Part shown: in pieces, positions 33,244 through 46,546 of the stretch
Numbering within the stretch: the first letter of the stretch is position 1
Layout: the number at the start of each line of letters is the position of its first letter
Assembly (NCBI GenBank): GCA_003153575.1
Contig: PLZW01000035.1
Coordinates: 176,148-240,147, forward strand
Reading direction: 5' to 3'
Length of the DNA: 64,000 nt
Source: Acidimicrobiaceae bacterium
GTDB lineage: Bacteria; Actinomycetota; Acidimicrobiia; Acidimicrobiales; RAAP-2
Position numbers and translations under genes: made by a program
Notes under the pieces: model-generated
Told to the model about the DNA's origin: nothing
The model's database searches: none
The model's input: the letters and a program-made list of their open reading frames with translations, nothing else

Positions 33244-34961
33244 GTCCCGGGCCCGAGGGCGGCCCGGCCCTCGCCGCCGATCCGGCCACCTCCGAGAAGG
33301 TCCCGTGGCGACCGTCCCGCATGTCGATGACACCGCGACCCGACACCGTCCGACCCGGCCGGGGACGGGTAACCGTGCCGGCGGTGGCGTCCGGACTCGG
33401 TCTGGCGCTGTCCCTCCCCCCCTGGGGCTTCTGGGTCCTGGCCTTCCCGGCAGCCGGCCTGCTGTGGTGGCGGCTCGGCGGGCTCCGACCGCGGACCCGG
33501 CTGTGGGCCGGGTGGCTGGCCGGCCTCGGGTGCTACATCCCCGGTCTCTTGTTCGCCCGCGCCTTCACCCTGCTCGGCGCAGCGGTGCTCATCGCCGTCG
33601 AGGCGCTGTTCGTCGGCGTCGCCTGCCTGGCCGTCCCCCGCGGTCCGGCGGTGGCCCGGGCCCTGGCCTTCCCCGCCGCCATGACGTTGGCTGAGGCGGC
33701 CCGCCAGGCGTGGCCGTTCGGGGGCCTGCCCATCGGCGGGGTCTTCCTCGGCCAGGCCGGCGGGCCGGTGCTGGGCGTGGCACGAATCGGCGGCCCGCTC
33801 GGCCTCACTCTGGCCGTGTACGTCGGCGGGGTCGGACTCGGCGCGCTGGGCACAGCCGTGGCCCGTGCCGTCCGCGACCGTTCCCGCATCCGCGAGTTCG
33901 ACCTATCGGGCGCCGGGTCGGACAGCGGAGGCGACCACGCCGGCGCGCCGCTCGGCGGGTCCGGGTGGCGCGGGGCCCTGGCCGGACTCGGGACCCTGGC
34001 CGCCACCGGCGCCGTCGCCGTGGTGGCGATGGTGGGGGCCGGAGTGGCGGCCGCCCACGCCCCGGACGGCGGCCCGTCGGTGGGCACGGTGACGGCGGCG
34101 GCTGTCCAGGGCGGCGGGGTGCGCGGTGTGGCCAAGTCCCAGGTCGATCCGGCCGTGGTGCTCGCCGCCGCCGTGGCCGGCACCGAGCCGCTCACCCACC
34201 GGTCCCCCGGCACCGGACCCCAACTGGTGCTGTGGCCCGAGGACGTGGTGGCCCTCGACGGGCCCCTCGATGGTTCGGCCGAGGAGGCCGCACTCGCGCA
34301 GCTGGCCGTCGCCCTGCACGCCACCCTCGTGGTCGGCGTCACCGAGACCCTGTCGGACACCGCCTTCCGGAACGAGGTGGTGGCGTTCGGCCCCGACGGC
34401 TCCATCGTGAGCCGGTACGAGAAGGTGCACCGGGTCCCCTTCGGCGAGTACGTCCCCTGGCGTCCGTTCTTCGCCAAGCTGGCGAACCTGTCGGCCGTGT
34501 CCCGGGACGCGGTGCCCGGCACCGGGACGGGTTTGCTCACCACGCCGGCTGGCCCGCTCGGGGCCATGATCTCCTACGAGGTGTTCTACGCCGACCGCGG
34601 CAGGTCGTCGGTGCGGGCCGGAGCCCAGCTGCTCGTGGTCCCCACCAACACTTCCTCGTACGCCGCCGCCCAGATCCCCACCCAGGAGATCGCCGCCAGC
34701 AAGGTCCAGGCCGTGCAGCTGGGCCGCGACCTCCTCCAGGCCGCGCCCACCGGTTTTTCGGCCTGGATCACCCACCGCGGCGACCTCCTGGCCCGGTCGG
34801 TCCTCGGCACCCGCCAGGTGGTCCCGGCCGTGCTCGACCGGCGCACCGGGACGACGGTCTACGTGCGGTGGGGCGACCTGCCGGTGCTGGTCGCCTCGGG
34901 ATCGGCCCTGGCGGCCGGTTGGTGGCTGGCGGTCCGCCGGAGGGGGCCGGACTACTCGTAG
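33240..34961 (+). CDS. lnt: Apolipoprotein N-acyltransferase with Ser at the nucleophile position
   Basis: Integral membrane protein of 573 residues that would N-acylate lipoproteins. About six to eight helices fill the first 275 residues, with PPWGFWVLAFPAAGLLWWR typical of Lnt. The C-terminal nitrilase domain keeps the glutamate (LWPEDVV, E334) and lysine (YEKVHRVPFGEYVPW, K395) of the triad. However, the segment equivalent to E. coli Cys387 reads GAMISYEVFY, placing serine at 445. An insertion of about 45 residues with SGAGSDSGGDHAGAP separates helices. ATG 33240 overlaps the hemY stop. Activity is uncertain; see findings. Confidence 0.85.
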   Translation: MSPGPEGGPALAADPATSEKVPWRPSRMSMTPRPDTVRPGRGRVTVPAVASGLGLALSLPPWGFWVLAFPAAGLLWWRLGGLRPRTRLWAGWLAGLGCYIPGLLFARAFTLLGAAVLIAVEALFVGVACLAVPRGPAVARALAFPAAMTLAEAARQAWPFGGLPIGGVFLGQAGGPVLGVARIGGPLGLTLAVYVGGVGLGALGTAVARAVRDRSRIREFDLSGAGSDSGGDHAGAPLGGSGWRGALAGLGTLAATGAVAVVAMVGAGVAAAHAPDGGPSVGTVTAAAVQGGGVRGVAKSQVDPAVVLAAAVAGTEPLTHRSPGTGPQLVLWPEDVVALDGPLDGSAEEAALAQLAVALHATLVVGVTETLSDTAFRNEVVAFGPDGSIVSRYEKVHRVPFGEYVPWRPFFAKLANLSAVSRDAVPGTGTGLLTTPAGPLGAMISYEVFYADRGRSSVRAGAQLLVVPTNTSSYAAAQIPTQEIAASKVQAVQLGRDLLQAAPTGFSAWITHRGDLLARSVLGTRQVVPAVLDRRTGTTVYVRWGDLPVLVASGSALAAGWWLAVRRRGPDYS

Positions 34962-35440
34962 TAGCCGGAGTGGATGTACACGCAGGGGATGCCCATGGCG
35001 TGGAACATGGCGAAGTTGTTGGGGTCGTCCTCGAATGCCAGACGCAGGTCGAACCCGAAGTGGCGGAGCTCGTCCACCGAGTCCCGCTTGTACCAGGTCA
35101 CCTGGGAGTAGTCCCCCCTGGCCCGCATGACGAGCAGGTCCCAGCGCAGGTCGTAGCGGTCGAGCCAGGCCAGGGTCTGGGGCTGGACCCGCATGGGGCG
35201 TCCGGTCAGCAAGACGATCTGGAGCTTCGGGTCGAGCAGCTCGAGTACGCGCGCCAGCTCGGCGATGACGGCGTCCTCGGCGCACGCGTCGAAGAAGGCG
35301 TCCCAGTTGCGCCGGCCCTGCTCGATGAAGTGCTGGCGGCCGACGGCGTCGGACAGGACACCGTCCATGTCGAAGACCACCGCCTCACCGGGCTGTTCGA
35401 TCCGTCCATCGCGCCACGCCCAGTTGCCCGGTTCGCCCAC
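34952..35440 (-). CDS. HAD-like phosphatase (PNKP/acid phosphatase-like)
   Basis: A 162-residue haloacid-dehalogenase fold protein. Motif I is VVFDMDGVLSD (nucleophile and acid Asp), motif II is VLLTGRP, and the acidic pair of motif IV is in LAFEDDPNN. These show an intact Mg2+-dependent phosphohydrolase site with little cap domain. Close relatives include phage-type polynucleotide kinase 3'-phosphatases, so a nucleotide or nucleic-acid phosphatase role is possible. The stop overlaps the lnt 3' end convergently by 10 nt. It sits 4 nt upstream of acsA's stop on the same strand. Confidence 0.82.
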   Translation of the reverse strand: MGEPGNWAWRDGRIEQPGEAVVFDMDGVLSDAVGRQHFIEQGRRNWDAFFDACAEDAVIAELARVLELLDPKLQIVLLTGRPMRVQPQTLAWLDRYDLRWDLLVMRARGDYSQVTWYKRDSVDELRHFGFDLRLAFEDDPNNFAMFHAMGIPCVYIHSGYYE

Positions 35441-37454: not shown

Positions 37455-37605
37455 TGCTCCCCCTTTCGCGACTGAGTGTCGGGGCCGACCACTGTGCGCC
37501 CGGCCCCGGCCCCGGCGACGCACATCGTCCCAGGTCCCGGCCGATGCGACCGTAGGCCCCGGCCGCCCCAGACTAACGCCGACGGGGCTTTAGACTGGAG
37601 GGGCC

Positions 37606-40600
37606 GTGACCACGACTACCCACACCGAGGGACCGGACTCGGCGGACGAGGACGCGACGGGGCCGGGCCCCGTTCCCGTCCCCGGCTACGCCCACCCCGG
37701 CACCTTCACGCCGGACCCGGGGGGAACACGGGTCGACGTCCCGCTCGGCCGGCGGGTGATGGTGGTCAGCGACCTCCTCCTGACGCCGTCCGCCACCGCG
37801 TCGACACTGGCCCTGACGGCCGAGCTCGCCCGGGCCCTGGATGCCTGGGACGGGCCGGGCATCCTCATCATCGCCGGGAACCTGTTCGACCTGAACGGGT
37901 GCGACGACCCGCTCGGCACCGCCGGGCGGGCCATCGACGCCCACCCGGCACTGGCCCGGTCGTTCCTCCAATTCCTCCAGATCGACGATCGTCGTATCCT
38001 GCGCCAGCGGGGCACCCACGAGCCGGAGGAGATCGCCCAGGGCCTGCGCGACCACGTCGATGGTGCCTCCGACGTGGTGGCCTGCCTGGCCGAAGCCGGC
38101 GTGGAGCACCTGGGATCGGTGGACCTCCACGTGCAGACCGGAACGGGCGAGCGGGTGGTGCGGGTCGAGCCCGGTACGCATGTCTACGGGAACGCCCACG
38201 ACGAATCCGCACTGCCCACCGCCGACACGAAGCCCGGCATCGCCTCCGGCGCTGGGCGGCACTGGCACAACCTGGTCCACGAATCGCCTGACGACGCGCC
38301 GTGGTTGCACGGGTTGCACCAGCTGTGCGACCCGTCAGCCCTTTCCCGTTTCGTCGTCTCCCGCACCCTCTACCGGCGGTTCGGCAAGTACGCATGGTGG
38401 CTCCTCGTCCCCTTCGGCGTGGCCGTCCTCCTGCGGGTGGCCGTCACCCCGTGGCTGCTCGGACATCTCGGGAGCGGGTTGCCGGCCCGGGCCCTGCGCC
38501 ACGCCCATGCCGCCGACCTCAACGACCAGCTCGTCATCGCCCTGGTGGTCGCCCTCGTGGTGCTGGCTGTGCTCGCCGTGGTGCTCGGACTGCTCAGCCG
38601 GCGCATGTGGTCGATCCTGGGCGGCGGTGCGCTGGAGGAGGTCAGGAACGAGGCCGGGGCCAACGACTCGGCGCGAGATGACGCCCGGCGCCTCGTGGCC
38701 CAGGGCTATGCCGGGCTCATCACCGCCGCAACCTTCCGGTCCGAGCTCACCAATCTCGGAACCGGGTTCTACGCCAACGTGGGCGCTACCGCCGAGGTGG
38801 TGGCCGAGCACAAAGGCCGGCTCGGCCTCCCGCCCGTATTCCTGCAGAGCCAGTGGGTGAGCTGGGTCGAGATCGAGTCCGGTGCCGAGCTGCACGTCCG
38901 GATGTTGCTGGCCCACAACGAACTCCCCTCGCCCAGTCGCCTGGAACGGGTCGTCACCCGGAGCCGCGTCGGCGGCTCGCTCCATCCCTCGCTGGTCGCC
39001 TCCTATCCGGTGGGCGACTCCTGGCCGCCCCCCTCCGACCTCCGCCAAGGCCACCGTCGCACCCGTCGTGTCCGCCGGTGGGCGGCCGTCGCCATCCTCG
39101 TCACGGGGATCATCGACCTCCTCGACTCCATCACCCCGCCACTGCACGGCCGGCTCCATGCCCTCGAGCAGTTCCTGCCGCTCCGGGCCAGCGTGGCCGC
39201 CGGGACTCTGGTGGCGCTGGCTGGACTCGCTCTCATCGCCCTGGGCCGCGGCATCCTGCGGGGCCAGCGTCGGGCCTGGCGAGTGTCGGTGGCCCTGCTC
39301 GGCGGCACCATCTTCCTCCACGTGGTGGCTGGAGCCGACATCGAGGAGTCGCTGATCACCGGGGTGGTCCTGGCCTTCCTGCTGGTCAACCGCAAGGAGT
39401 TCCAGGCTGCCTCCGACGCCACGTCGATGCGGTCGGCCTTCATCGCCCTCGGCGCGGTGGCGCTCGGCATCGCCGTCGTGGCCACCGCGTCGATCGAGCT
39501 CTTCACCCACATCGGCCGCCATCACAGCCAGACCCTCCAATGGTGGACCACCTTCTGGGCCGTGTCCGAGCGGTTCGCCGGGATCACCACCATCGATCTG
39601 CCGGAACGGGCCGACCGGTTCCTGGCGCCGGCCCTCCTGGCCATCGGGATCTGCCTGGCGGCCGTCACCCTCTACCTGCTGACCCGGCCGGTCGTCGACC
39701 GGCGCCTGGGCTCGGGCCGGGCCGCCGAGTTCCGGGCCCGCGACATCGTCCGCCGCCACGGCTCCTCCACCCTCGACTACTTCGCCCTGCGGTCGGACAA
39801 GAGGTGGTTCTTCCACCGGGACAGCCTGGTGGCCTATGCCGTCTACGGAGGTGTCTGCCTCATCTCCCCCGACCCCATCGGCCCCCGCAACGAGCGCGAG
39901 CAGGTGTGGGGCGCCTTCCGCGCCTTCGCCGACACCCACGGCTGGACCACCGCCGTCATGGGGGCGGGCGAGGAGTGGCTCGCCACCTACCGGGACTCGG
40001 GGATGCACAACATCTACCTGGGCGACGAGGCCGTGGTGCGGCTGCAGGAGTTCAGCCTGGCCGGCAAGCACATGAAGGGCCTGCGCCAGGCCCACAACCG
40101 GATCCACAAGTACGGCTACACCGTCAGCTTCCACGACCCGTCGCGGATCGACACGGGCCTGACCCAGGAGCTCACCTCGCTGATGCGGCTGTCGCGCCAG
40201 GGCGAGCACGAGCGGGGATTCTCGATGATGCTGGGCCGGGTCTTCGACCCCCGCGACGCCGGGATGCTGCTGACCGTGGTCCGCACACCCGACGGGGCGG
40301 CGGCGGCCATGTGCCAGTTCGTCCCGGCGACCGGCATCAACGGCTTCTCCCTCGACTTGATGCGCCGGGATCCGGGCGACCACCCGAACGGCCTCCTCGA
40401 CTTCGCCCTGTGCTCCACCATCGAACACCTGGCCGCACGCGGCTTCGACGGGCTCAGCCTCAACTTCGCCGCCATGCGCTCCACGCTGGCTGGCGAGAAG
40501 GGCGACGGGACCGTCCAACGGGCCGAGCGCTGGTTCCTCAAGCGGCTCTCGAACTTCGCCCAGATCGAGTCACTGTGGAAGTTCAACGCCAAGTACGAGC

Positions 40601-40896
40601 CCGAGTGGCTGCCCCGCTACGTCGTGTTCGACACCGCCGAGCACCTGGTGCCGGTGATCATGGCCATCCTGCGGGCCGAGTCGCTGTGGGAGATCCCGGT
40701 CCTCGGGAGACTGCTCGCCGCCGGTGCCGAGAAGCGGATGCTGGCCGCCCAGCAGGACACCGACGAGTTCCTGGCCTCCATCGTCCCGTGGGACGAGGAC
40801 GGTGTGCGTGTGGCCGACACCGGCGGGCCGGTCATCGTCGGCACGGTCCCGGCACCGGACCGCGCTGAGCAGCCGACCGTCACCCCCCAGGCCTGA
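37606..40896 (+). CDS. Fusion of degenerate metallophosphoesterase-like domain, membrane region and DUF2156 (MprF-like) domain
   Basis: A 1,096-residue protein. Residues about 50-240 resemble a calcineurin-like phosphoesterase: VVSDLLLT, IIAGNLFDL, RGTHEPE and VYGNAHDE sit where DxH, GD, GNHE and GHxH are expected, but several metal ligands are changed. Helices follow at about 263-283 and 308-330, then a soluble segment (about 340-480), then roughly six more helices (490-692). The C-terminus (about 715-1030) is the DUF2156 / phosphatidylglycerol lysyltransferase domain (FHRDSLVAYAVYGGVCLISP, GFSLDLMRRDPG). Lipid aminoacylation is inferred; a lysyl-tRNA synthetase-like part is absent. TAGACT precedes GTG by 9 nt. 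Confidence 0.82.
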   Translation: MTTTTHTEGPDSADEDATGPGPVPVPGYAHPGTFTPDPGGTRVDVPLGRRVMVVSDLLLTPSATASTLALTAELARALDAWDGPGILIIAGNLFDLNGCDDPLGTAGRAIDAHPALARSFLQFLQIDDRRILRQRGTHEPEEIAQGLRDHVDGASDVVACLAEAGVEHLGSVDLHVQTGTGERVVRVEPGTHVYGNAHDESALPTADTKPGIASGAGRHWHNLVHESPDDAPWLHGLHQLCDPSALSRFVVSRTLYRRFGKYAWWLLVPFGVAVLLRVAVTPWLLGHLGSGLPARALRHAHAADLNDQLVIALVVALVVLAVLAVVLGLLSRRMWSILGGGALEEVRNEAGANDSARDDARRLVAQGYAGLITAATFRSELTNLGTGFYANVGATAEVVAEHKGRLGLPPVFLQSQWVSWVEIESGAELHVRMLLAHNELPSPSRLERVVTRSRVGGSLHPSLVASYPVGDSWPPPSDLRQGHRRTRRVRRWAAVAILVTGIIDLLDSITPPLHGRLHALEQFLPLRASVAAGTLVALAGLALIALGRGILRGQRRAWRVSVALLGGTIFLHVVAGADIEESLITGVVLAFLLVNRKEFQAASDATSMRSAFIALGAVALGIAVVATASIELFTHIGRHHSQTLQWWTTFWAVSERFAGITTIDLPERADRFLAPALLAIGICLAAVTLYLLTRPVVDRRLGSGRAAEFRARDIVRRHGSSTLDYFALRSDKRWFFHRDSLVAYAVYGGVCLISPDPIGPRNEREQVWGAFRAFADTHGWTTAVMGAGEEWLATYRDSGMHNIYLGDEAVVRLQEFSLAGKHMKGLRQAHNRIHKYGYTVSFHDPSRIDTGLTQELTSLMRLSRQGEHERGFSMMLGRVFDPRDAGMLLTVVRTPDGAAAAMCQFVPATGINGFSLDLMRRDPGDHPNGLLDFALCSTIEHLAARGFDGLSLNFAAMRSTLAGEKGDGTVQRAERWFLKRLSNFAQIESLWKFNAKYEPEWLPRYVVFDTAEHLVPVIMAILRAESLWEIPVLGRLLAAGAEKRMLAAQQDTDEFLASIVPWDEDGVRVADTGGPVIVGTVPAPDRAEQPTVTPQA

Positions 40897-41781: not shown

Positions 41782-43101
41782 TCAGTCCGTGGCGGTGCCG
41801 GCGCCCGCCGCCGGACCCGACCCGACCGGGGTGGCTTCGACGGGTGGATCGCCCGCGGGGGCGCGCCGTGCCCCGTACAGGCCTACGAGCATCACCACGA
41901 ACAACGTGACCAGGACGATGATCAATGCCACCAGGACCGTCGGCTGGTTCCACAGCACGAGTACCGCCAGGCCGAGCACGAGCACGCCCCACTGGAATGC
42001 CTTCCGGTGCCCAGCAACGGTGTTGTAGACGGGACCACTCGACAGCCACGACGGTGTCTTGCGCTCGTGCATCCAGCGCCGGACCGGGCCGAGTCCCACA
42101 ACAAAGGCCACGATCGCCACGATGGCGGCAATGGCCAGGATCCACCGGACGGAGTCGAGCAATGCGGCGTCGACGGTGTCGATGACAGCGGCGGTCGCCT
42201 CCTTCGACTGGTGGACATCGAGGGACGACAGGTACTGATTCCGACCGACATTGGCCGCGATCAACAACAGAGCCATCGACACGGCGAGGCCCGACGCGGC
42301 ATGGACCAGGCCCCGTCTCCGATCACGGGCCAACAAGACGGCGCCGGCAAACATCAGGATCGAGACGATCGGCAGCACCAGTGCCAGGTGATTGAGGAAC
42401 TTGATCCATCGCTGCAGCTTGGCCAACTGGTCCGATTGGAAGAGCACTAGAGGGGCGCCGTTGTAGTTCGGGATCTTGTTGAACACCGAGAGACCGCGTG
42501 CAGACAGCTGTTGCTTGGCCGCGTTCTCCACCTGGGTCAGATCCACGGTCACCTGACCGTTGGTTGACTGGAAGGCGCCGACTTTGTTGCCGAGCAACAG
42601 GTCGTCGACCTGCGCATGCGAGCGGCGGACCGACTCCTCCCAGAGGCTCTGGAATCGGGGGCTCTGCACCAGCTTCAACGTGATCTGGTACGTGGCGGTG
42701 TGGACGGCATCCGTGATCGGATTGGCGAGGAACCCGGCTTTCTCAGGTAGGGCGTTCTTCACCCGCTGCTCGACGTTGGTCCGACCGACAAGGTTGTCGC
42801 TGACCTTGGTGGCGACGACCGTCTGGATCGCCTTGTCCTTGGCCAGCGGAGCCACCGTGGCCACGAACGTGTCGGTGTTGAGCAACTCGTTGCGGGCGTA
42901 GACAATGACCACCGACAGGACCGCCAGCAGACAGGCGAGGACGATCAGTACCCAGGACGCGATCGTGCGGCCCGGGCGGCCCCTGGGCTTCGACGACGCC
43001 GCCACCTGGTGCCGGAGCGACTCGTTCTCCTCCTCCAGGACCTCGACTTCGCGCTGGGGTTCGTCCGGGTCCCGCTCACCCGCCAGAGGTTCGTTCGTCA
43101 C
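41782..43101 (-). CDS. Conserved multi-pass membrane protein of unknown function
   Basis: A 439-residue protein from GTG 43101, chosen because TACAGT lies 7 nt upstream and the preceding sequence is low-complexity Ala/Gly. A predicted cytoplasmic coiled coil (REVEVLEEENESLRHQV) precedes TM1 (about 50-70). A large extracytoplasmic domain (about 70-240, with LNTDTFVATVAPLAKDKAIQ) is followed by five or so helices (about 250-275, 285-300, 330-355 and 375-415). I do not recognise an enzymatic family; similar architectures are found widely in actinobacteria as integral membrane proteins. Same strand as the adjacent SHOCT gene's neighbour. Confidence 0.7.
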   Translation of the reverse strand: MTNEPLAGERDPDEPQREVEVLEEENESLRHQVAASSKPRGRPGRTIASWVLIVLACLLAVLSVVIVYARNELLNTDTFVATVAPLAKDKAIQTVVATKVSDNLVGRTNVEQRVKNALPEKAGFLANPITDAVHTATYQITLKLVQSPRFQSLWEESVRRSHAQVDDLLLGNKVGAFQSTNGQVTVDLTQVENAAKQQLSARGLSVFNKIPNYNGAPLVLFQSDQLAKLQRWIKFLNHLALVLPIVSILMFAGAVLLARDRRRGLVHAASGLAVSMALLLIAANVGRNQYLSSLDVHQSKEATAAVIDTVDAALLDSVRWILAIAAIVAIVAFVVGLGPVRRWMHERKTPSWLSSGPVYNTVAGHRKAFQWGVLVLGLAVLVLWNQPTVLVALIIVLVTLFVVMLVGLYGARRAPAGDPPVEATPVGSGPAAGAGTATD

Positions 43102-43108
43102 CCGGTCA

Positions 43109-43114
43109 ACTGTA
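43109..43114 (-). promoter_or_regulatory. Probable -10 (TACAGT) of a leaderless gene
   Basis: TACAGT on the minus strand is 7 nt upstream of GTG 43101 and supports that start for the multi-pass membrane protein. Confidence 0.4.
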
Positions 43115-43222
43115 CCGGCGGCTCCAGCCGCCGCCGGGGACGCCCCACATCCCGGACGCGGCGATGGCCGCCCATCGTGCGCCAGGCACAACGGCGGCCA
43201 TCCACCGGGACAACCAGGTGCG

Positions 43223-43902: not shown

Positions 43903-45343
43903 CGCGGCGACCCCTGCTCCGGCGCCGGCGGCGGCTTCTCCCGACCCGGCGCAACTGCTGCAGTCGAAGAGCTACCTGCAGTTGCTGGCGCTGGCTGCAC
44001 TGATCGGTGTCCCGATCTCGGCTGTCGCCTACTTCTACCTGGCACTGGTCGGCCACCTCCAGACGTGGCTCTTCACCTCCGTCCCGACCGCCCTCGGGTT
44101 CCACGGCACACCCGTGTGGTGGCCGCTGCCGATGCTGCTGGTGGCCGCCGTGCTGGTCGGCCTCACCATCACCTACCTCCCAGGCACGTCCGGTCACGAG
44201 CCGGCCGAAGGGTTCCATACGGGCGGCACCCCGCTCCCGGTCGACCTCCCCGGCATCATCGTGGCCTCAATTGTCACCCTGTCGCTCGGGGCCGTCCTCG
44301 GACCCGAGGCACCGCTCATCGCCGTCGGCGGCGGACTGGGCGTGCTCGCCGTCCACCTCGCGGCCCGGGACGCGCCGCCCATGGCGGCCACGGTCATCGC
44401 CGCGGCCGGCAGCTTCGCCGCCATCAGCACGCTGCTCGGCTCACCCATCATCGGAGCATTCCTCCTGATGGAGGCATCCGGTCTCGGCGGCCCGCTGCTC
44501 GGAATGGTGCTCGTGCCCGGACTCCTCGCCGCCGGCATCGGCACCCTGATCTTCATCGGGCTCGACCAGTTGACCGGTCTCGGCACGTTCTCCCTGGCCA
44601 TCTCCGGACTGCCGACCTTCAGCCATCCGACCGGCACCCTCTTCCTGTGGGCCGTCGCCATCGGGGTACTGTCCACGTTCCTGGGAACGGCCATCCGGCT
44701 CGGTGGGCTTGCCGCCCAGTCCCTGGTCCTGAAGCATCGGCTGGCCTGGACGATTGCGGCGGGCACGGTGGTGGCCGGATCGGCGATCGCCTTCGCCGAA
44801 CTGACCCACAAGAGCGCCCAGAACGTCCTGTACTCGGGGCAGAACGCACTGCCCGGACTCGTGCTCCACGCGTCGACCTGGACCGTCGGCGCACTCATCG
44901 TGCTCATTGTGGCCAAGTCGATCGCGTACGCCACCTCGCTGTCCGCGTTCCGGGGCGGCCCGATCTTTCCCGCCATGTTCATCGGAGGAGCCATCGGCGT
45001 CGCCGGCTCACACCTGCCGGGCATGGTCCTGGTACCCGCCGTGGCCATGGGAATCGGAGCCATGACGACGGTCATGCTCCGTCTTCCCCTCACGGCGACG
45101 CTGCTCGCCGTGCTGCTGGTCTCGAGCGACGCGCTGGCCGTCACCCCCCTGGTCATCGTGGCCGTCGTCGTCGCCTACGTGCTGACCGCCCGGTTGCCCC
45201 AGCGTCCGGCCGACCTCCGGGGCCACCGTGCACCACCGACTACGCCAGCAACTCCGACAGCACCTGCAGCACCTGCAGCACCTGCAGCACCGGCAGCACC
45301 TGCAGCACCGGCAGCACCTGCAGCACCGGCCGGAGCCGGCTGA
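43895..45343 (+). CDS. ClC-family chloride channel/transporter
   Basis: Polytopic anion channel or H+/Cl- exchanger of 482 residues. Family motifs are GAVLGPEAPLIAVGGGLG (the GxEGP loop, here with Glu retained), GTSGHEPAEGF in place of the GSGIP loop, and FRGGPIFPAMFIGGAIGV (GGxFxP). The canonical anion-selectivity loop is thus altered. It lacks CBS domains and instead ends in an Ala/Ala/Pro repeat encoded by a 9-bp minisatellite. ATG lies inside the upstream peptide gene; the channel-like protein gene follows after 3 nt. Confidence 0.88.
   Translation: MSDAATPAPAPAAASPDPAQLLQSKSYLQLLALAALIGVPISAVAYFYLALVGHLQTWLFTSVPTALGFHGTPVWWPLPMLLVAAVLVGLTITYLPGTSGHEPAEGFHTGGTPLPVDLPGIIVASIVTLSLGAVLGPEAPLIAVGGGLGVLAVHLAARDAPPMAATVIAAAGSFAAISTLLGSPIIGAFLLMEASGLGGPLLGMVLVPGLLAAGIGTLIFIGLDQLTGLGTFSLAISGLPTFSHPTGTLFLWAVAIGVLSTFLGTAIRLGGLAAQSLVLKHRLAWTIAAGTVVAGSAIAFAELTHKSAQNVLYSGQNALPGLVLHASTWTVGALIVLIVAKSIAYATSLSAFRGGPIFPAMFIGGAIGVAGSHLPGMVLVPAVAMGIGAMTTVMLRLPLTATLLAVLLVSSDALAVTPLVIVAVVVAYVLTARLPQRPADLRGHRAPPTTPATPTAPAAPAAPAAPAAPAAPAAPAAPAGAG
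45258..45329 (+). repeat. 9-bp tandem repeat (8 units) in the ClC 3' end
   Basis: Eight consecutive units of CAGCACCTG/CAGCACCGG encode the repeated Ala-Ala-Pro tail of the ClC protein. It is in frame, so copy-number changes would lengthen or shorten the tail without a frameshift. Confidence 0.9.
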
Positions 45344-45346
45344 TCG

Positions 45347-46546
45347 GTGCTCGCCGACGCGTCCCAGGCCGCCCACTCGGCCGTCGCCCAGATCACTGCG
45401 ATCGCACTCGGGGCTGCACTGGTCGCCTCGGTCCTGCTCTCCGCAGTCGAGACGGTGGTGCTCCCCCGTAACTCCTTCACCCGGATCACCCGGGCGACCT
45501 TCGCCGTGGCCAACCGCGTGCTTGTCCACGACGGTCCGAACCGCGAGCGCTCCACCCGCAGGCGCGGCCTCTACGCACCGGTGGCCCTGGTGACGCTGCC
45601 CCTGGTGTGGATGCTGGCGGTCATCGTCGGCTTCACCTTCATCTTCTGGGGGGCCGACGCCGGCTCGTGGCAGAAGTCGTTCGAGGTCAGTGGCTCGTCG
45701 GTCACCACACTCGGGTTCTCGGCCCCCTCGGGGAGCCTCCGCACCTGGATCAGCTTCGTCGAAGCCATCATCGGGTTGGGGCTCGTTGCCCTCCTCATCA
45801 GCTATCTGCCGACCATCTACGCCGCCCATCACGACCGGGAGAAGGGCATCCGCACCCTCCGTCCCTTCGCGGGAACACCACCCTCGGGAGTCGGGCTACT
45901 TCTCAACCTGAGCCGGTTCCAAGCGGTGGACAACCCCGACCTGTGGCGGACAGCATCGGCGTGGCTGCTCGAACTCGATCAGACGCACTGCTCGTTCCCC
46001 GCCCTGTGCTACTTCCCCGAAAGCGATGACACCCAGTCGTGGGTGGCCACAGTGGGCTCGCTCCTCGACGCTGGGGCCCTCCTCCTCTCGGCCAACCCCA
46101 TCGAATGGGGCGAAGAGGCCACGATCCGCCACCAGGGTCCGATGATCGTCCTCGCCAACGGCGTGCCCACTGTGATCGAGATCGGTCGGGCGGCGGGGCT
46201 CCCGATCGCCCAGCCCGTCCCGCTCGTCGAACTCCTCCCCGACGGTTCCGGAGTCGCCCCGCCGATCTCCGTGTCCCGGGACGAGTACCTGGCGGCCGTC
46301 GACCGCCTCACCGACATCTTCACGATCGTCGACGATCAGCGCCAGGACGCCTGGCTGCGGTTCGCCGCAGTGCGCGCCTCCTACGACGAGGCGCTCCGCG
46401 GGCTCGCGGGCCTGACGCTCTCGCTGTCTGCTCCCTGGACCACGGACCGACCCGCCGCCGTCGGACGACCACGTCTGCTGACCAGCAAGCCGATCCCCGT
46501 CGACTGGTCGTTGCCCGCCTCCGAGCAAGACACAGGTGGTGGCTGA
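45347..46546 (+). CDS. Pore-loop (K+-channel-like) membrane protein
   Basis: A 399-residue protein with GTG start 3 nt after the ClC stop. Helices lie at about 15-36 and 72-94, then a pore-loop candidate GSSVTTLGFSAPSG (about 117-130) and another helix (about 133-158). The loop resembles a two-TM K+ channel filter but reads TTLGFS rather than TVGYG. A cytoplasmic domain of about 235 residues follows (LLLNLSRFQAVDNPDLWRTAS ...), not recognised. Ion specificity is uncertain. Tight coupling with the ClC gene suggests paired anion and cation flux. Confidence 0.65.
   Translation: MLADASQAAHSAVAQITAIALGAALVASVLLSAVETVVLPRNSFTRITRATFAVANRVLVHDGPNRERSTRRRGLYAPVALVTLPLVWMLAVIVGFTFIFWGADAGSWQKSFEVSGSSVTTLGFSAPSGSLRTWISFVEAIIGLGLVALLISYLPTIYAAHHDREKGIRTLRPFAGTPPSGVGLLLNLSRFQAVDNPDLWRTASAWLLELDQTHCSFPALCYFPESDDTQSWVATVGSLLDAGALLLSANPIEWGEEATIRHQGPMIVLANGVPTVIEIGRAAGLPIAQPVPLVELLPDGSGVAPPISVSRDEYLAAVDRLTDIFTIVDDQRQDAWLRFAAVRASYDEALRGLAGLTLSLSAPWTTDRPAAVGRPRLLTSKPIPVDWSLPASEQDTGGG

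Follow-up and report, generated by a model that had tools for sequence, protein, structure and literature searches.

A degenerate, hairpin-split metallophosphoesterase fused to an MprF-like aminoacyl-lipid synthase module in Acidimicrobiaceae

The DNA considered here is a 64,000-nucleotide stretch (the window) of an Acidimicrobiaceae genome assembly (GCA_003153575.1, contig PLZW01000035.1). It harbors a gene in which a phosphoesterase-like domain is fused to a membrane domain and a lipid-aminoacylating synthase domain. The gene, its start signal and its upstream neighbor are:

37606..40896, + strand: whole gene, 1096 amino acids plus stop, open reading frame intact
37597..37603, + strand: likely ribosome-binding site GGAGGGG, as judged from the sequence, preceding a GTG start
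34952-35440, − strand: PNKP-like HAD phosphatase (PF25109), upstream of the fusion gene

The fusion gene is found in a single copy in this 2.98 Mb actinobacterial assembly, which is 76% complete, and no other LPG_synthase_C protein was found there. Upstream are hemE-hemH-hemY, lnt, the HAD phosphatase and an acetyl-CoA-synthetase-type gene. A scan of GTDB yielded 26 related loci, labeled mostly as Acidimicrobiaceae/Acidimicrobiales, and 24 of these are full or nearly full length at 41−84% identity. The HAD phosphatase adjoins the fusion in almost every orthologue, to identities as low as ~40%, and has lnt and hemE-hemH-hemY on its far side; because the hem genes and the HAD gene, often together with lnt, still adjoin the fusion in orthologues at 40−50% identity, the locus has been kept vertically. 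Contamination or mis-assembly can be ruled out, given an identical architecture at 24 independent loci and a synteny common to most of them. One locus (L021) is found on an Acidobacteriota-labeled contig; its protein is close to those of Acidimicrobiaceae and has the same hem-HAD neighbors, i.e., this bin is probably mislabeled.

The C-terminal part of the protein is composed of the following regions:

39061..39705, + strand: membrane domain resembling TM9−14 of MprF and the TM region of LysX, residues 486−700 (sub-threshold PF16995; phmmer to MprF structures)
39745..40626, + strand: LPG_synthase_C (DUF2156) aminoacyl-tRNA:lipid transferase domain, residues 714−1007 (PF09924, E 1.2e-69)
40741..40893, + strand: weakly constrained C-terminal tail, residues 1046−1096 (dN/dS 0.27−0.84 in pairs with enough synonymous change)

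On the basis of its sequence, this part is predicted to move an amino acid from aminoacyl-tRNA onto PG or DAG. The DUF2156 domain that a first-pass annotation had recognized here is confirmed by the match to PF09924 at residues 714−1007 (E 1e-69; 235 bits against a curated cut-off of 27.5). To score synthase integrity, 13 non-fused synthases, PaMprF among them, were used to define 53 columns that 12 or more of them conserve, and the window protein keeps 46 of these, including D917, N928-G929 and K996; such residues are referred to as conserved rather than catalytic, because a literature search for catalytic-residue numbering found nothing. PF16995, which describes the membrane region of LysX, is matched below threshold (6e-5, residues 485−686). 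A model of the full-length protein has the MprF cryo-EM structures as its top matches (E ~1e-23), and at its pTM of 0.64 the contacts between domains are unreadable.

The bifunctional LysPG/AlaPG synthase-flippase MprF (7duw, 9goe) shares TMD2 (TM9−14) and the C-terminal GNAT-pair synthase with the window protein, residues 494−1009 of which align to residues 374−868 of P. aeruginosa MprF (phmmer), but the TMD1 flippase is absent and a pseudo-phosphoesterase with a membrane hairpin is found there instead. Consistently, MprF profiles match the protein only from residue ~490, and NF033480 (MprF) scores 272 against a cut-off of 600, matched at positions 323−837 of 841, i.e., outside TMD1. Like LysX, the protein is actinobacterial, is devoid of the flippase region and combines a PF16995-like TM region with LPG_synthase_C, but it ends at residue 1096 after the synthase, without the C-terminal lysyl-tRNA synthetase (NF002821 scores 306 against a cut-off of 742, with positions 10−591 of 1102 matched), and LysX forms a separate clade from the fused proteins in the synthase tree. 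LysX2 (Rv1619), another unusually built MprF-like protein of actinobacteria, also has no LysRS, but its synthase domain is extracytoplasmic, its TM segments number four and it has no metallophosphoesterase (MPE) domain (PMC8974105).

The N-terminal domain is a degenerate calcineurin-like MPE of residues ~45 to ~470, divided into two halves by a membrane hairpin of two helices:

37738..38190, + strand: MPE N-terminal half, residues ~45−195 (alignments; AlphaFold2 pLDDT mostly 85−95 in strands)
38290..38379, + strand: conserved basic lead-in to the hairpin (RFVVSRTLYRRFGKYAWW region), residues 229−258
38380..38616, + strand: transmembrane hairpin within the MPE fold, residues 259−337 (hydropathy; two long helices in the model)
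38668..39015, + strand: MPE C-terminal half, residues 355−470 (alignments; pLDDT about 85−95; dN/dS 0.07−0.22)

Family profiles do not reveal this domain directly. A Pfam and NCBIfam scan of the window protein gave no match over cut-off in residues 1−480, PF00149 being absent, and a scan of 25 orthologues yielded no more than weak signals of Metallophos and DNA_pol_E_B. Against PDB sequences, a profile of the degenerate set had no relevant match, and one of the intact set touched Vps29 at the GHTH end only (E 0.28). The orthologues align throughout residues 1−480, and S217, R218, Y221 and R222 (alignment numbering) of the hairpin lead-in are invariant in A1. After the hairpin their sequence is G-x-x-T-A-A-T-F-x-x-E-L...G-F-Y-A-N-x-G, a possible worn form of GHTH...NxG and thus of the C-terminal end of an MPE. 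A search with the orthologue profile then led to an unfused relative, L050, in which all motifs are intact (DLH, GDCFE, GNHD, EHGH and GHTH) and in which an equivalent hairpin, as in other unfused relatives, is inserted between motifs IV and V. The extent of the domain and its split by the hairpin follow from this protein, where PF00149 (40−188) and PF12850 (324−360), both over the Pfam cut-off in one chain, flank the hairpin, and from an hhalign comparison of the degenerate and intact sets that covers 402 columns (probability 100, E 2e-77).

The fold is supported by an AlphaFold2 model of residues 36−485 (pLDDT 77, pTM 0.77), calculated from an alignment of 25 rows (25−26 rows only in all such runs), in which the two halves have well-predicted strands and are joined by two long helices. 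Among PDB entries, this model is closest to the lipid X complex of H. influenzae LpxH (5k8k; 382 alignment columns, E 8.2e-4, probability 1.00), which is also the sole match below 0.001; the next ~40 are mostly MPE folds, i.e., GAP50, the polymerase alpha B subunit, Vps29, PP5, 5'-nucleotidase, Mre11 and GpdQ. Together, hhalign and the fold search establish homology to calcineurin-like metallophosphoesterases over the whole fold. Two of these matches, Vps29 and the B subunit of DNA polymerase alpha, are MPE folds that act as protein scaffolds and are not known to work as phosphatases; in contrast to the window domain, they are eukaryotic and soluble and have neither hairpin nor synthase. LpxH, a UDP-2,3-diacylglucosamine pyrophosphohydrolase, coordinates metal by Asp8, His10, Asp41, Asn79, His114, His195 and His197, and its lipid-binding helical insertion (residues 119−173) is located between His114 and His195 (PMC5016852), i.e., in the same slot between motifs IV and V as the window's hairpin. 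The insertion is, however, a soluble helical domain in LpxH and a transmembrane hairpin here, and the window protein has lost the ligands and is fused to a synthase. The NCBIfam equivalog PRK05340 (LpxH) has no match in the window protein, and the intact relatives reach 16−21 bits against 134.

The sites of the MPE motifs, as defined by an alignment of 76 sequences, are:

37771..37779, + strand: motif I site D56-L-L58; DxH in intact relatives, His lost
37879..37881, + strand: motif II site N92, replacing the bridging Asp
38014..38019, + strand: motif III site T137-H138; N-H in intact relatives, metal Asn lost, catalytic-type His kept
38170..38172, + strand: motif IV site P189 (E-P-G-T), replacing His
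38188..38199, + strand: "GNAH", residues 195−198; not motif V, aligns to PxNAF after motif IV
38728..38736, + strand: motif V site A375-T-F377 (T-A-A-T-F); H-T-H in intact relatives, both His lost

The seven metal ligands D, H, D, N, H, H and H thus correspond to D56, L58, N92, T137, P189, A375 and F377, of which only D56 is kept, together with H138 of motif III; the window protein does not have the ligand set of an MPE enzyme. The first-pass annotation had read DLL (56−58), GN (91−92) and GTHE (136−139) as worn DxH, GD and GNHE, which the alignment upholds, and GNAH as a worn GHxH, which it does not: aligned with the intact relatives, this tetrapeptide coincides with a P-x-N-A-F stretch that follows motif IV, and motif V proper is A375-T-F377. 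That annotation also ended the phosphoesterase at about residue 245 and left 340−480 unexplained, while the fold resumes beyond the hairpin and the latter segment is its C-terminal half. A domain confined to residues 40−245, with GNAH as motif V and a separate domain of another kind at 340−480, places motifs I−III correctly, but it is refuted by the intact relatives, in which GHTH follows the hairpin and 340−480 is the end of the MPE fold; we regard it as next to impossible. The annotation's central proposals have held: the expected structural match to the phosphoesterase fold was found, with LpxH as the best, and the loss of catalysis ahead of MprF-like parts is borne out by the one remaining ligand of seven, the LpxH-fold model and the intact relatives, both fused and unfused. 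A role of the dead domain as a sensor or binding module, as proposed there, is plausible.

D56 is nearly invariant and H138 frequent, and because these residues persist the degenerate MPE may, from its sequence, still bind a single metal weakly. The persistence of these residues, as well as a conservation of the C-terminal half that nearly equals that of the synthase, could also indicate an MPE that remains catalytic through a remodeled active site, with a different metal or none, and acts on a lipid head group. We consider this unlikely, because the six lost ligands are replaced differently in each lineage (the motif I His by L, S, D, F, W or E, the motif II Asp by N, R, Q or A, and the motif III Asn by T, S, R or W), unlike one new conserved site.

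The degenerate MPE is under purifying selection. Among close orthologues, dN/dS is 0.16−0.32 in the N-terminal half, 0.07−0.22 in the C-terminal half, 0.07−0.15 in the synthase and 0.27−0.84 in the C-terminal tail; the pair L017/L018 was left out as too close for a reliable ratio. These low values in both halves make a useless passenger unlikely. A decaying MPE, retained merely as an in-frame lead to a needed membrane synthase, would fit the faster evolution of the N-terminal half relative to the synthase and the further erosion in L049 and L097, but ratios of 0.07−0.3 in both halves, well below those of the tail, and the retention of the MPE in fused members of several families speak against it, which makes this explanation rather improbable.

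The relatives form a series from intact to degenerate domains. All seven ligands are kept in 25 of 25 unfused relatives (L051, a fragment and near-copy of a fused gene, was left out of the count) and also in four fused proteins, L117 (=L055), L118 (=L056), L121 (=L039) and L134. L117, L118 and L121 have both PF00149 and PF09924 over the Pfam cut-offs, and L134 combines DMH/GDILE/GNHD/EHGH/GHTH with an intact synthase (46 of 53 columns). Intermediate fused proteins keep five (L057), four (L054) or two ligands (L046/L047 and L041), and the window's clade none to two. Since fused proteins with all seven ligands exist, fusion most likely preceded ligand decay. In a quick tree of the synthase domain, the fused proteins form a group that excludes LysX and plain synthases, with an SH-aLRT of 100, and the ligands seem to have been lost once. 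A more careful tree, to which the very distant PaMprF was added, gives the fused grouping only 52/88 and does not uphold a single loss, since the dead state requires two or more independent changes. The neighbors of the intact fused and unfused relatives differ from the window's; those of the unfused MPE genes have no gene in common with them and give no hint of a substrate. The unfused set includes actinobacterial MPEs of ~450−510 residues with the hairpin between motifs IV and V (L058, L060−L082), and none of the unfused hairpin MPEs scanned has an NCBIfam name over cut-off. In L097 and L049, from genomes of family f3, the fused MPE is eroded further still and the synthase is conserved.

Decay is also seen on the other side of the fusion. 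The window protein and its kin keep 43−47 of the 53 synthase columns, while two relatives with intact MPE ligands, L117 and L118, keep 31 and 33, their losses including Q828, R832, N928-G929 and K996, the last within an F-N-x-K-[FY] motif that is kept elsewhere:

L117:4821-7973, − strand: fused relative with intact MPE and a synthase without the F-N-x-K and N-G motifs
L118:1300-4443, − strand: fused relative with intact MPE and a synthase without the F-N-x-K and N-G motifs

On the synthase side the case comes from these two related genomes, which likely encode a dead synthase beside a live phosphatase. Thus, the L117/L118 lineage loses synthase residues, one genus keeps both parts and the window's clade keeps the synthase alone, a reciprocal pattern expected from an ancestral double enzyme that later lost either activity.

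Such a history would fit a bifunctional membrane enzyme, in which an LpxH-like lipid phosphatase with a transmembrane "lid" would make or edit the lipid to be aminoacylated by the fused synthase, for instance by turning a phosphorylated precursor into DAG or PG. Both activities would be found in one genus (L134 and L121), and elsewhere one half would be a retained pseudoenzyme partner, i.e., the phosphatase in Acidimicrobiaceae and the synthase in L117/L118. LysX in several actinobacteria charges DAG rather than PG (PMC10580965), and an LpxH-like lipid phosphatase would therefore be a natural supplier for the synthase. As an account of the whole family, this is a tentative possibility that we rate below even.

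Most likely, the dead MPE of the window protein holds or regulates the aminoacyl-lipid synthase to which it is fused, a pseudo-phosphatase role suggested by conservation without catalysis. Stated in full, with somewhat better than even confidence, the protein is an aminoacyl-lipid synthase with MprF TMD2-like helices and LPG_synthase_C, in which a hairpin-split, LpxH-like pseudo-phosphatase replaces the flippase and anchors or positions the synthase and/or regulates it via a ligand. Strongly basic stretches (RFVVSRTLYRRFGK before the hairpin and HRRTRRVRRW before the six-helix region) and the even number of helices between the soluble parts lead us to infer that both MPE halves and the synthase are on the cytoplasmic side. 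The protein would thus sit in the cytoplasmic membrane, where the synthase would charge lipid from aminoacyl-tRNA. Its ancestor may have been bifunctional, coupling a membrane-facing phosphatase of lipid-linked phosphate to aminoacylation; in the window's clade, catalysis would have been lost and the MPE kept as a membrane clamp and/or a lipid- or nucleotide-binding regulator of the synthase. The clamp would perform the structural job of the flippase domain in MprF, which in RtMprF grips the synthase by specific contacts (PMC8131360).

The position of the MPE where MprF has its flippase, in a protein without a flippase region, could alternatively mean that it is a flippase-like or lipid-transfer accessory in place of TMD1, whose hairpin moves the product across the membrane. 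With just two membrane helices and no TMD1 similarity, and given that LysX functions although it is without the MprF TMD1 region (PMC10580965), this is quite unlikely. The MPE adds a further partner domain to the MprF/LysX family, beyond the known flippase and LysRS.

A literature search found no paper on a metallophosphoesterase-MprF fusion or on DUF2156 together with a phosphoesterase; the parts belong to known families, but a phosphoesterase split by a hairpin, the joining of such a domain to an LPG synthase and the reciprocal decay of the two appear to be undescribed. This one architecture offers a graded series from active-looking to dead metallophosphoesterases with reciprocal decay of both enzymes, so that the reason for keeping a dead phosphatase can be tested in one family, as can a past coupling of lipid dephosphorylation and aminoacylation in actinobacteria, where LysX uses DAG and not PG.

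On the other side of the fusion gene, the window encodes two membrane-type proteins without a Pfam match (41782-43191, − strand, and 45347-46546, + strand), which are found near the fusion in several orthologous loci, and a low-complexity TPTAPAAPAAPAAP repeat tail (45200-45343, + strand) ends a chloride-channel-like protein.
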